Under the pieces are notes generated by a model that was not told the DNA's origin, did no database searches, and saw only the letters and a list, made by a program, of their open reading frames with translations. The position numbers and the translations under genes are program-made. Positions 53,800 to 60,091 of a stretch of 64,000 nt of DNA are shown here, piece by piece (within the stretch, counting starts at the first letter, position 1; the number at the start of each line of letters is the position of its first letter). Location of the stretch: the NCBI GenBank assembly GCA_903860975.1, contig CAIOSI010000045.1, positions 1 to 64,000 on the forward strand. Direction: 5' to 3'. This DNA comes from an uncultured Alphaproteobacteria bacterium. GTDB lineage: Bacteria > Pseudomonadota > Alphaproteobacteria > Caulobacterales > Caulobacteraceae.

Positions 53800-54526
53800 T
53801 GACCTGCCCCTGATCTTTCATCCAGCTCGGACCAGAGTCTCGGCCGTGGTTACGCCTTGTGGCGCGCGGTGAGCAACAGGCCGAGCCGTGGAGCTTCCAC
53901 ATTGCGCAGCGGGTCGGCCTGTTGCGTTCAGGTGCGCGGCATAGGCCGCAGGGGTCTGGTAGCCGATCGACGAGTGCGGACGCTGAGTGTTGTCGTCGGC
54001 GGTCCAGGCAGCCAGCTTCTGGCGAGCGTGGTCGAGATTGAAGAACAGGCTCTCGTTCAGCAGCTCGTCGCGCATCCGGCCGTTGAAACTCTCCACGAAG
54101 CCGTTCTGGGTGGGCTTGCCCGGCGCGATGTAATGCCAGGCGACGCGGTGATCCTCGGCCCAAGCCAGGATGGCCGTGGAGGTGAACTCCGTGCCGTTGT
54201 CGCTGACGATCATCCCGGGTCGCCCGCGTCGCGCGATCAGCGCCGACAGCTCTCGCGCCACCCGTCGCCCGGAGATCGAGGTGTCGGGGATTGCCGCCAG
54301 GCACTCGCAGGTCACGTCGTCGACCACGTTGAGAATCCGGAACCGCCGCCCGCCCGCAAACTGGTCGTGCACGAAGTCCAGCGACCAACGGGCGTTGGTC
54401 TTGGCCTTAACCAGGGTCAGGGCCCGCGTGCCGATGGCGCGGCGGCGTGAGCGTCGCTTGCGCACGGTCAGCCCCTCCTCGCGGTAAAGCCGGTAGATGC
54501 GGTTCTTGCCCGACGGCTCGCCCTCC
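53800..54526 (-). mobile_element. IS3-family element remnant, 5' part deleted
   Basis: One terminus is intact at 53800: the plus strand there reads TGACCTGCCCCTGATCTTTC, the TG..CA type end of IS3 elements, 18 bp outside the orfB stop. The element holds only the C-terminal two thirds of orfB. orfA, the start of orfB and the other terminus are missing, so it cannot transpose. Confidence 0.8.
53818..54526 (-). pseudogene. IS3-family transposase OrfB, C-terminal fragment
   Basis: About 235 residues of the integrase-like transposase: it begins within [20 protein letters not shown] and runs through [20 protein letters not shown] (first catalytic Asp), [11 protein letters not shown] (second Asp), [17 protein letters not shown] (catalytic Glu, the DDE set) and [15 protein letters not shown] to a normal C-terminus. 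The N-terminal HTH part is missing; the frame upstream to 54687 has unrelated sequence. DDE residues are intact but the protein is not full length. Confidence 0.88.
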
Positions 54527-54796
54527 GAATATGAACGCGGTAACGACGATTGCTTCGTCGGTCGGACACATCCAGGGGTTCTCACAGTCCAGGTTCTGTC
54601 GACTTGGTTTGCGCTGATCGTACGTGATCGGCAAAGTTTCAGGCTTAGCATCTCGGCCGACAAGGCCTCCGAGTTCGTCGTCGCCACCCGGACGGGTTAT
54701 GCCGCGCCAAATTCGGCTTTAGACAGAGTTCTACTGATCGTGCCGGTAGGCCTCTTGCGCTCTTCGCAACGGCGCAAACCGCTATACGATTGCAGG
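54527..54796. other. 270 bp between the IS remnant and aat
   Basis: No gene recognised. It contains a 5'-extension of the aat frame with no similarity and a broken upstream tail of the orfB frame. It may hold the aat promoter and another rearrangement junction near 54527. Confidence 0.4.
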
Positions 54797-56024: not shown

Positions 56025-56429
56025 CTATTTCGGGGTCCAAGCCTCGTAGTCGGCCGTGGCTTTCTGACGCTCTCCCCCCCGAGACAGGGCCCCTTGCGGA
56101 CGATAGGCGTGGATCGTCCCCGTCATATTGGGCAGGTGATCCTTTTCCCACGACTTAATGAGGAACGGCTCGACGGTCGGCGGTTCGGCAAAGGTGTAGT
56201 GCAGCCAGCCATGCCACTCGGCCGCAACCTTCGAGGCGTCTGCGTAACCCCGATAGATCACCCAGCGGCGTTTGCGGCCGTCATAGCTATCGGAATTGTC
56301 TCGCGCCTCGAAGTAGCGATTGCCGCCTTCGTCCTGGCCCACAAAGACGCCACGACGGCCAATGTGGAAGCGCGCACCAATGGTTGCGCCGTTCCACCAC
56401 GTAAAGATCGACTTCAAAAAATTCAGCAC
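56025..56429 (-). CDS. NDUFA12-family accessory subunit of NADH:ubiquinone oxidoreductase
   Basis: 134 residues, the bacterial homologue of mitochondrial complex I subunit NDUFA12 (B17.2). Characteristic stretches are FFTWWNGATIG-like FTWWNGATIGARFHIGRRGVFVGQDEGGNRYFE, RRWVIYRGYADASKVAAEWHGWLHYTFAEPP and HLPNMTGTIHAYRPQGA (given in parts here: NRYFEARD, WHGWLHYTF, PNMTGT). It binds the peripheral arm of complex I. The complex I operon itself is not in the window. Followed by DUF2155 on the same strand. Confidence 0.94.
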   Translation of the reverse strand: MLNFLKSIFTWWNGATIGARFHIGRRGVFVGQDEGGNRYFEARDNSDSYDGRKRRWVIYRGYADASKVAAEWHGWLHYTFAEPPTVEPFLIKSWEKDHLPNMTGTIHAYRPQGALSRGGERQKATADYEAWTPK

Positions 56430-56612
56430 AGGGATTTTGTCTCTGGGAGAGGGAGAAGCGCGGCCGGACTATAAGCGGGTCGATTTGGAGCGTCCAGCGC
56501 TCCGACCCAATGCGCATTGAAGCAAGATGTTGGGGATGAACGTCACTCACACCACAACATCTATTGATTGAGGGCTTCGAGGCAGCCTAACCTGAGGCCA
56601 GGGAGTAGGCGA

Positions 56613-59069
56613 ATGGTGCGCGAAACGTCGCGGACAAGAATCGAAGCGCGAGCCGTTGAATTCGCCGGGCGCGTCTTGGATGTGCAGGCCCCGGCCCATT
56701 GGACGACGGCGCAACTTGACGCCTGGGTCGACTGGGCCGACGGCGACCCAGATATTGTTGGCGCCATCGAGGACTTCGTCGAAGACCTAACCACCCGGGC
56801 GCAGGCCAAAAGCCTCGTCAAGGATGTCGCTGCCCGGACACGCTTCCGCGACGAGCTTACCTTCGGCCTTTTGAACGGAGCTATCGCGATAGGATTGGCG
56901 CCCAACTTCACGGCTGGGGCGGTCGTCGAAACGGGTGCACCAGAGATCGCGCACGCGTTGGCGGCTCATAATGGCCAGGCCGCTGCCACGGCTGTCGCCC
57001 ATGAGCTTGGTCGGCGCATGCAGGCAGTCATGGATGCCGTCTTGCGATGCGAGGGCGACGACCAAGCTTGTTCAGATCCTATCACCAATCCAAGCCTTGC
57101 CCGCGCCGCAGCCGCAGCGCGCGCCGCCGGGGCTCCGGATTCGATGATCTTCGATGCCATTGCCCTGGCGCGTTCAGGCGATCGCGCCTGGGCGATCGAG
57201 GTTCCTCAGTCGAGGCAGGCTGACCCACCGCTACTGGTCGTAGGCCCACCGGACGAACAGCTCGCGCGCGCGGTTTGGGCCACCGGCTCGATCGTTTCGG
57301 TGCCCACGAGGGCTACGGCTGAACGGATCGCCGCTGCTGGCGAAAGCCTAAGGGGCGCGATCAACCTGATGGCCTTCTGGTCACACGACGGCTTTGACAT
57401 CGACAGCTTCGAGGCTGCCGCCAAGCTCCTGGCGAGCGCACTTACCGCGCGATCCGACCAGCGGGGCGTGGTGGGATTGGCTGGGCTCGGCGAATGGCTC
57501 GTGGCCAGCGGCCTGGACTATGATAGCGATGCGGCTCACGAGACCGCCCGCGAACTCTATCTCGCCGCAGACCGCGCAATGTCTGCAACCGAGGTGCGAC
57601 TGGGACTATTCCGAGATCCGGAACTGGAGCTTCGGCTCGGCGGCGGGCGGGTGTCGGGCGAGCCGTGGGCAGGACCGATTACCGTTGCCGAGAGCGCAGA
57701 CGGCGAGCCCGTTCGGGTGCTTAGCGAAGCGGCGATCCTAGGCCTAACCCTTTTTGGCGTCGATGGGGCGACCGCCCATGCCGAATTGCTTGGCCGAGCA
57801 GATCTCGCTGACGCGCCTGGGGTCAACCATGCCGCTCTGCTCTCTCGCGGCTTTACGAATCACGAAATCGCCGCGGTCGAAGCCGTCCTGCCATTTGTCA
57901 CCAGGCTCTCCGACGCCTTTGCGCCCTCGGTGATCGGCGAAGGTTTCCTTCGCGACGTGATGGGGGCGAGCGCCGAGGCGCTGGCAGATCCGCAGTTCGA
58001 TGCCCTGGTTTTGATGGGTTTTTCCGGCACCGATATCGCCGCTGCGGAGGTCTACGCGCTTGGCGCCGACAGTCTGGCGGAAGCCGACTTCCTGACTGCG
58101 CCTGCCCGCAGCGTCTTCCGAAGCCGCGACGACCGAGGTCTGGCGTCGCGCAGCGCCATGATCAAAGCCCTGGAGCCCGCGATCGCGGCTCCGCCCGTCC
58201 TGGAGCTAGAGCTTGCCTGGAACACGACACCGGCCGAAGTGCTGGCGACCCTCACCGAAGCGGCAGGTCCAGTCCGCATTCGCCGCGCCGCCGCGACTTC
58301 GGAAACAAGCCTAGAACTTCCTAACCTTCCCGAGGTGCGCGCGCCGCGGCAGCCCGAACCCGAGGAGCGCATTGTGGAGCGCGTCGTAGAGCGGGACCGC
58401 ACGCGTCGGAAGCTGCCGGACCGCCGCAAAGGCTACATCCAGAAGGCCGCTGTGGGAGGTCACAAAGTCTACCTCCACACAGGAGAGTACGATGATGGCG
58501 AGCTTGGTGAGATCTTCATCGACATGCACAAGGAAGGCGCTGCCTTCCGCTCGCTGATGAACAATTTCGCGATCGCGATCTCCATTGGCCTGCAATACGG
58601 TGTGCCTCTGGACGAATTCGTCGAGGCGTTTGTCTTCACCCGCTTCGAGCCGGCCGGACCGGTAACCGGCAACGACACCGTCAAATCTGCCACTTCGATC
58701 CTCGACTACATCTTCCGCGAACTTGGCGTCTCATACCTGGGGCGCAATGATCTTTCGAATGTCGATCCCGGTGAACTCAACGCCGACGGGCTTGGTCGCG
58801 GCAACGCCGAGGGCGCTGAGGCGATCTCGACAGAGGGAGAGCCGCAGCCGGCCTCGCGGTTTATCTCCCGTGGCTTTTCGCGGGGCGCAGCGCCTGACAA
58901 TCTGGTCTTCCTGCCCAGCGCCAATCGCTCGCGTGGTCCCACGAACCTGGAATCGGCCGACGTCTGCGCAGCCTGCGGCGATGTAGCCGTCGTGCACAAG
59001 GGCGCGGCACTGATCTGCGAGACGTGTGGCGCGCGCGCAGGCCGGTTGGGCGAAGACGTAGGCGGGTAA
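56613..59069 (+). CDS. NrdJ-like protein lacking ribonucleotide reductase cysteines (degenerate class II RNR paralogue)
   Basis: 818 residues. From about residue 600 it closely resembles the C-terminal region of B12-dependent ribonucleotide reductases: [57 protein letters not shown], ending in a CxxC...CxxC zinc-like tail (CAACG, CETCG). The first 550 residues keep traces of the catalytic barrel ([30 protein letters not shown]) but are shortened and divergent. Between about residue 155 and the tail there is no cysteine at all, so no thiyl-radical or reducing cysteines exist and RNR activity is excluded. ATG 56613 has GGGAG upstream. Role unknown. Confidence 0.85.
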
Positions 59070-59197: not shown

Positions 59198-60091
59198 GTG
59201 CCCACGAAGCCCCCATCCCTGATGATCGCTCTGTTGAGCCTGGCGCTCGTTTTGCCATTGGCTGCACGCGCCTCGAGCAGCGTTGGCGACAAGGAAGTGC
59301 CGAGGTCCAAAACGTTCGGCGGCGATTGTACCAAGTGCGAGCTTTCTGGCCGAATGATGCACGGCGCTCACTTTATGAATGCCAACTTTGCCGGTGCGAC
59401 CCTCGTCGGCTCTGACCTGAGAGAGGCCCATTTTATAGCTTCCAGCTTCGTCGGAGCTGACCTGACACACGCCAATCTGTCGGATTCACAGATTATCGCT
59501 GCCGACTTCACCGACGCGATCCTTGCCCACGCCAAACTACGCGACGCTCAAACTGTCGGCAGCAGATTCAACAACGCCACTCTATCGGGCGCTGATTTCA
59601 GCGACGCGACGGCCCAGGGCACCGACTTCAATCAAGCCCAGCTGATTGGCACACTCTTTCGTTCGACGGAGCTGAGCGGTGCACACTTCGAGCGTGTGAT
59701 CGCCCGCGATGCGGACTTCCGTAACGCCACCATGCATGCCGCTGTGCTCACGTATGGTCGCTTCGAAAGGGCCAGCTTCAGGGCTGCAGCGCTCGATGGG
59801 GCCGTCCTGATGGGAGCCGACTTCGAGGGCGCTGACTTCAGGGACGCGAGCCTGAAGCGAGCTTCGATCGCCGGCGCAGACCTCTCGCGGGCTCGCGGGC
59901 TCACGCAGCATCAGATCGACGAAGCTTGCGGCGACAGCCATACACGTCTGCCCCACGGGCTGACGGCGAGGCTGTGCTCTGGTCGTGAGGCGCACATCAT
60001 GACCTCACCGCACGTGCGGTTAATCCCAGCGATTCCGGCACCTCCAGGCCCGCCGGCACCCCCATATCGATATTGGGTTGCGCCTGTCTAG
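59198..60091 (+). CDS. Secreted pentapeptide-repeat protein
   Basis: 297 residues. A signal peptide (LMIALLSLALVLPLAARA) precedes a CTKC pair and about 35 A(D/N)LxX-type pentapeptide repeats (for example GADFSDATAQGTDFNQAQL), predicted to form a quadrilateral beta-helix from about 45 to 235. The C-terminus has two cysteines and a Pro-rich tail ending APPYRYWVAPV. Unlike Qnr-type DNA mimics it is exported, so a gyrase role is unlikely; a structural or binding role in the envelope is inferred. Start GTG 59198, or ATG 59222. Convergent with aspS, 6 bp apart. Confidence 0.87.
   Translation: MPTKPPSLMIALLSLALVLPLAARASSSVGDKEVPRSKTFGGDCTKCELSGRMMHGAHFMNANFAGATLVGSDLREAHFIASSFVGADLTHANLSDSQIIAADFTDAILAHAKLRDAQTVGSRFNNATLSGADFSDATAQGTDFNQAQLIGTLFRSTELSGAHFERVIARDADFRNATMHAAVLTYGRFERASFRAAALDGAVLMGADFEGADFRDASLKRASIAGADLSRARGLTQHQIDEACGDSHTRLPHGLTARLCSGREAHIMTSPHVRLIPAIPAPPGPPAPPYRYWVAPV

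Follow-up and report, generated by a model that had tools for sequence, protein, structure and literature searches.

The NrdJ-derived gene and its neighbourhood

The window, by which we mean the whole 64,000-nucleotide stretch of DNA analysed here, carries genes in the order Aat, DUF2155, NDUFA12, an NrdJ-derived gene, a pentapeptide-repeat protein and AspS (Table 1). An identical order surrounds some of the intact class II ribonucleotide reductase (RNR) genes (NrdJ) of the same order, Caulobacterales, for example locus L116. NDUFA12 was found near 87 of 89 non-catalytic genes of the kind described below, compared with 40 of 82 intact nrdJ genes; among the intact loci it was present in 24 of the 29 fetched from the order and in 16 of the 53 fetched from elsewhere, and most Bradyrhizobium and Rhodobacterales-type loci had no NDUFA12 in the flank examined. 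The pentapeptide-repeat gene lay near 79/89 non-catalytic and 29/82 intact genes, although the flanks compared were of unequal length. As this neighbourhood is common to non-catalytic and intact loci, the gene has descended in place within the order. Beside aat, a reverse-strand frame (window 53818-54687) resembles a fragment of an IS3-type transposase, from a reading of its translation.

Table 1 Positions, in the window, of the NrdJ-derived gene, its parts, its promoter elements and its neighbours
Feature	Position	Strand	Evidence
NDUFA12, divergent neighbour	56025..56429	-	PF05071
First box of NrdR-type pair	56520..56535	.	Matrix from nrdA promoters
Second box of NrdR-type pair, 32 bases on	56552..56567	.	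Matrix; both elements visible in Phenylobacterium alignment
Shine-Dalgarno AGGGAG, 7 bases 5' of ATG 56613	56600..56605	+	Sequence
Non-catalytic NrdJ-derived protein, 818 aa	56613..59069	+	ORF and Shine-Dalgarno, TSCPD match, NF005736 378.8 bits, cysteine positions
Residues 1-562: degenerate RNR barrel lacking the phosphate-loop and finger-loop motifs, the first-half segments and the catalytic cysteines	56613..58298	+	
Residues 597-712: TSCPD domain, best-conserved part of the protein	58401..58748	+	PF12637; identity comparison
Residues 782-808: four-cysteine ribbon (C785, C788, C802, C805); other residues at both redox positions of active NrdJ	58956..59036	+	
Pentapeptide-repeat protein, downstream neighbour	59198..60091	+	PF00805

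An earlier note on this DNA, made from the sequence alone, had described the product as a full-length relative of NrdJ lacking the catalytic cysteines. This is confirmed: the protein has six cysteines in all, at positions 146, 153, 785, 788, 802 and 805. It matched the TSCPD family PF12637 at 39.5 bits (Pfam cut-off 22.8) and the NrdJ model NF005736 at 378.8 bits, in four stretches, against an NCBIfam cut-off of 1737. Its predicted fold agreed with that of an RNR barrel, so the remnant barrel that the earlier note expected is present in the prediction, and the fold seems to have been retained despite the loss of cysteines. Neither of the two findings that the note had named as counting against it, homologues with the active-site cysteines or first 550 residues with no fold relationship to RNR, was obtained.

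Searching the window's genome with the protein revealed no second copy. PF02867 identified there a single catalytic-type large subunit, NrdA, on contig C34 with NrdB adjoining it, plus a weak match to the gene studied here; class I NrdA and NrdB were the only RNR found in this genome, which showed no class II enzyme that could serve as a catalytic partner. The TSCPD region, lying before the zinc finger, we take to be the IscU-like domain that occupies the same place in the long C-termini of class II enzymes (Burnim 2022, PMC9669993), the identification being our own. A structure model of the TSCPD domain plus ribbon was poor (mean pLDDT 55.7) and gave no fold match (best Foldseek E 0.63), so the resemblance to IscU is not confirmed here.

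Loss of catalytic cysteines and of nucleotide-site motifs

We compared 82 intact NrdJ proteins with 90 non-catalytic ones, each 760 aa or longer and together drawn from four families of Caulobacterales; 88 of the 90 were distinct by their last 300 residues (two pairs being identical there). Left out of the 90 were shorter proteins, the window's own gene (L001 and L004) and L063, whose contig begins past the finger loop, hence its apparent sorting as non-catalytic. Two other loci proved to be contig-edge artefacts: L187, in which NPCSE is present, is an intact NrdJ truncated where its contig starts, and L190 is a cut C-terminus with an intact-type tail.

Not one of the 90 has any of the five catalytic or redox cysteines (first barrel, finger loop, second barrel and two tail redox positions), whereas all 82 intact proteins have these and the zinc cysteines, nine in total. 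Position by position, the finger-loop radical cysteine in NxCxE was present in 0/90 non-catalytic and 82/82 intact proteins, as were, at both positions, the two barrel cysteines that we take to be the active-site redox pair; both members of the C-terminal redox pair (C933/C945 of S. nassauensis NrdJd) were likewise absent from all 90. The same split was seen in a smaller first comparison of 50 non-catalytic and 53 intact proteins. All four zinc cysteines, by contrast, were kept in 89/90, and the exception, L042, ends at a contig edge. With C920, C923, C936 and C939 proposed as zinc ligands and C933 and C945 as the redox pair (Loderer 2017, PMC5704485), the zinc site has been retained and exactly the redox pair lost. 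Judged from these sequences, both thiyl-radical and re-reduction chemistry are impossible, the needed cysteines being gone, which bears out the earlier note as far as the radical chemistry is concerned.

The architecture is reminiscent of that of NrdJb. In the split class II RNR of Pseudomonas aeruginosa this small subunit is a chain of its own that provides disulfide exchange to NrdJa (Crona 2015, PMC4520616), and it places an IscU-like domain and a zinc finger apart from the catalytic barrel (domains as described in PMC9669993). This likeness is what speaks for an electron-delivery subunit serving another RNR, a role to which we give scarcely any credence: unlike NrdJb, the studied protein has lost the redox pair, both cysteines being absent in 90/90, and the window's genome yielded a class I enzyme alone. 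We rejected an NrdJb-like electron carrier on the missing pair.

Mean identity between non-catalytic and intact forms was 79.2% over the TSCPD domain and 24.2% over the barrel. First-half barrel segments are missing in the non-catalytic form, and three motifs that we take to be nucleotide sites of NrdJ (the PTGT phosphate loop, loop 2 and the GTGSNF segment) have few of their consensus residues left in the 90 proteins: the GTGSNF segment is gapped in at least 81, and the loop-2 and PTGT residues are mostly lost. Reuse of the nucleotide-binding part, which the earlier note had entertained, is therefore unlikely; what survives is the TSCPD domain and the zinc ribbon.

The two remaining cysteines, C146 and C153, form a C-EG-x4-C pattern at residues 146-153 (window 57048-57071). 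They are present in 70 and 66 of the 90 non-catalytic proteins, respectively, and each position is a cysteine in 40/82 intact NrdJ; they may be metal ligands or form a disulfide.

Distribution within Caulobacterales

Matches to the protein were found in all 35 other genomes searched from its own genus and in 57 of 60 relatives, its own genome included. No stop lay within any match listed among the relatives; in G011 the gene is split over two overlapping frames, and some other relatives' copies are in pieces at contig ends. Scoring of 150 Caulobacterales genomes with the NrdJ model separated 35 with an intact form (1622-1998 bits), 106 with a non-catalytic form (best 194-406 bits) and 9 with neither, in which the weaker matches found (E 6e-32 to 3e-15) are probably to other RNR large subunits. 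Among the matches listed for these 150 genomes, with mostly no more than four candidates scored per genome, none combined an intact with a non-catalytic NrdJ. Class I NrdB was present in 149/150, so the clade of cysteine-free homologues beside an intact RNR that had been predicted for Caulobacterales does exist. The one exception, G154, has an intact NrdJ, as does G043, where the NrdB match is weak; G177, with the non-catalytic form, shows an NrdB fragment only.

A tree of 81 proteins had one branch (SH-aLRT 100) that separated all 55 non-catalytic forms from the 26 intact ones. The TSCPD domain on its own required two changes within the order, with one clade not rejected (p 0.66). The non-catalytic form is kept over four families, and one family, f4, contains both forms.

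Two minor observations concern other RNR genes. The NrdJ at L140 (genome G108), intact in other respects, falls into two frames within its C-terminal part, by sequencing error or as a real split. Several Phenylobacterium genomes, the window's not among them, have a second RNR large subunit, and the one identified (L263:1501-2901) exceeds the cut-off of the class II family TIGR02504.

Selection on the TSCPD domain and the barrel

We estimated dN/dS in 14 disjoint non-catalytic pairs and 17 intact pairs. In the non-catalytic pairs the TSCPD domain gave 0-0.19 (median 0.06) and the barrel 0.06-1.01 (median 0.33; below 1 in 13/14); the intact medians were 0.10 for the barrel and 0.05 for the TSCPD domain. 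Synonymous sites look saturated beyond the five closest pairs, and distant pairs probably are; the three pairs with least synonymous difference gave barrel values of 0.158, 0.085 and 0.063, and the next two about 0.52. By these medians constraint on the TSCPD domain matches that in the active enzyme while constraint on the barrel is looser, and the estimates point to strong purifying selection on the former and weaker purifying selection on the latter. The earlier note had argued for a selected protein as opposed to a decaying gene; this stands clearly for the TSCPD domain and less firmly for the barrel.

It is very improbable that the frame is a decaying pseudogene, left over from an NrdJ made useless once a class I RNR had taken over. 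A barrel dN/dS roughly three times the intact value, and close to 1 in a single distant pair that is probably saturated, could be read that way, as could the nine genomes without the gene and the G011 copy in two overlapping frames, but the listed matches contain no stop, TSCPD dN/dS does not exceed 0.19, the zinc cysteines persist in 89/90, the promoter box pair described below is kept in Caulobacteraceae and conservation extends over the four families.

A promoter element shared with class I RNR genes

Sites of the repressor NrdR are, as a rule, two upstream 16-bp boxes with a spacing of 31-32 bp. Alignment of 20 Phenylobacterium regions upstream of the studied gene revealed two common elements about 32 bases apart, and a box pair was found in 39 of 40 nrdA upstream regions, with the consensus ACACTATATATAGTGT; as the nrdA boxes were chosen by a presumed NrdR core and fixed spacing, the consensus owes its core, and nrdA its high scores, partly to this choice, which does not affect the scores of the studied gene. 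We scored upstream regions with a matrix derived from 17 nrdA promoters from beyond the genus, with 114 control upstream regions for comparison. The window's pair scored 24.8, and the next best pair in the 64-kb window not using these boxes scored 8.7; of the controls, 99% scored 12.0 or less and the maximum was 14.7.

A pair above 99% of the controls preceded the gene in 50/50 Caulobacteraceae regions and in all three Caulobacterales records without a family. Elsewhere it was patchier (f2, 1/7; f3, 6/13; f4, 0/12; f102, 1/10; f13, 0/10; f31, 6/14). It also preceded 18/43 intact NrdJ genes, so the pair may be inherited. Because the boxes sit between two divergent genes, an effect on NDUFA12 is possible. 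A plain pattern search of 20 upstream regions revealed no LexA or CtrA sites. In Caulobacteraceae, synthesis of the protein probably follows that of class I RNR through putative NrdR control.

This promoter lends indirect support, within Caulobacteraceae, to the earlier suggestion that the protein regulates or pairs with the true RNR. One form of that idea, a dNTP-sensing regulator or inhibitor of class I RNR working through the old allosteric sites of the barrel, would agree with the pair shared with nrdA and with NrdB in 149/150 genomes. We nevertheless consider it quite improbable, as the old nucleotide-site motifs are missing or changed (GTGSNF gapped in at least 81/90) and there are TSCPD-only forms with no barrel at all, to which we now turn.

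Reduced forms in other alphaproteobacterial families

Across the class, the domain was found in 151 of 240 genomes surveyed; its absence from the other 89, and from nine of the 150 genomes of the order, indicates that the gene is dispensable in some lineages. Five other alphaproteobacterial families have NrdJ-derived forms without the NPCSE motif. The form in f102 is represented by 10 distinct proteins that have the TSCPD domain and no ribbon pattern; the short form was matched in 36/38 genomes, in frames of 273-294 aa, and these genomes are of 1.0-1.5 Mb and, we infer, SAR11-like. In f157, the sister family of f102 in the same order, 38/40 genomes gave a match, with a frame of 1180-1218 aa in 36, and the three loci that we read are intact NrdJ; DUF2155, NDUFA12, the gene itself and AspS are common to the surroundings in both families. 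In f13 (10 distinct proteins; matches in 27/32 genomes) the TSCPD domain and the four-cysteine ribbon are present and the redox pair is lost. The 13 distinct proteins of f31 (matches in 57/60 genomes) have no ribbon pattern in those checked. Single proteins represent f104, from a genome with 10% contamination, and f154, where a protein of 918 aa retains the ribbon. NrdB was present in 7/7 genomes searched from families with reduced forms.

A tree of 64 domains (120 columns) across the class gave six changes between intact and non-catalytic forms, with a single clade not rejected (p 0.14); we argue for independent losses outside the order from taxonomy and from the unlike remnants rather than from this tree.

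Nine basic residues of the domain (R598, R604, R605, K611, H617, K618, H639, K640 and R646) are invariant in 38 aligned proteins. Together with the NrdJ ribbon having been modelled on a tRNA-modifying enzyme (PMC5704485), they bring to mind a protein that binds RNA or DNA outside dNTP metabolism, through the basic TSCPD segment and the zinc ribbon. We regard this as unlikely, though not far-fetched: only 18 of 120 TSCPD columns are kept at 90% in every class, and of the nine basic residues only R598 and K611 are among them once f31 and f104 are added; the f102 and f31 forms have no ribbon pattern; and the domain, poorly modelled, had no structural match.

A probable non-catalytic role for the TSCPD domain

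Our preferred reading, which we hold to be probable though by no means secure, is that the gene encodes a conserved pseudoenzyme derived from NrdJ whose TSCPD domain, a binding module without catalytic activity, is the unit under selection; in Caulobacteraceae the protein would probably be made together with class I RNR. The domain is alike in the forms compared, and the f102 proteins consist of little else. Because it is kept almost unchanged here, and because other lineages have trimmed the gene towards it, the domain probably has a second, unrecognised job. A more general proposal, which we favour only slightly over its negation, is that alphaproteobacterial class II RNRs are bifunctional: the C-terminal TSCPD domain would have a cell-wide job unrelated to making dNTPs and, once a class I RNR renders the reductase redundant, lineages would discard or ruin the reductase portion while the domain stays at its locus, the extreme being a free-standing protein of some 275 aa in small, putatively SAR11-like genomes.

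Under the pseudoenzyme reading, the TSCPD domain would act without catalysis, by binding a partner that would be the same in species with and without an active NrdJ; since any partner should occur in both, a plain RNR-subunit role is unlikely. The barrel would be a holder under relaxed constraint, the function having apparently outlived its deletion elsewhere. In Caulobacteraceae, and there only, the repressor NrdR would couple synthesis to that of class I RNR, in which case the protein would be made when dNTPs run low and would probably serve dNTP supply or replication as an adaptor. As a guess, the ligand may be a nucleic acid, or a protein of replication or of the nucleotide pool, contacted via the conserved basic segment RRKGY..K..HKVYL.

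We know of no role assigned to the TSCPD domain. Non-catalytic uses of RNR proteins do have a precedent in betaherpesviruses, which have catalytically dead RNR large subunits; there too an RNR has turned non-catalytic and gained a new use, but the viral case concerns a class I R1, whereas here the protein is bacterial and of class II and its C-terminal domain is selectively retained. With alphaproteobacterial class II NrdJ (NF005736 / PRK07562) the studied protein shares the locus within the order, the predicted barrel fold, the TSCPD domain and the zinc ribbon; it differs from it in having no catalytic or redox cysteines, finger-loop motif or first-half barrel segments, and in the loss of most of the nucleotide motifs. 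Burnim 2022 (PMC9669993), where the IscU-like domain is described within class II RNRs, states that no role had been reported for it; here it has been retained after the reductase was lost. Nor did we find, in the open-licence literature, a description of an NrdJ that has lost catalysis and kept its TSCPD domain. Evolution would have separated a hidden function from a well-studied essential enzyme, by removing the reductase and leaving the TSCPD domain.

The corresponding place in Caulobacter crescentus may be bracketed by CC1887, a 105-aa protein shared with eukaryotes (PMC1182365), and CC_1892, the aspartyl-tRNA synthetase (PMC3073932), and CCNA_01966 would be situated there. The latter is drawn as NrdJ in a figure of the B12 pathway (PMC6538847); going by two other Caulobacter loci, L043 and L044, and by the C. 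vibrioides control genome, in which nothing matched over the NF005736 cut-off (a result that says little by itself), it is unlikely to depend on B12 as a reductase. As the NCBIfam NrdJ models match the non-catalytic proteins far under their cut-offs, naming these 'reductase' would overstate dependence on B12. The question of what the TSCPD domain does can be put to the test in a model bacterium.
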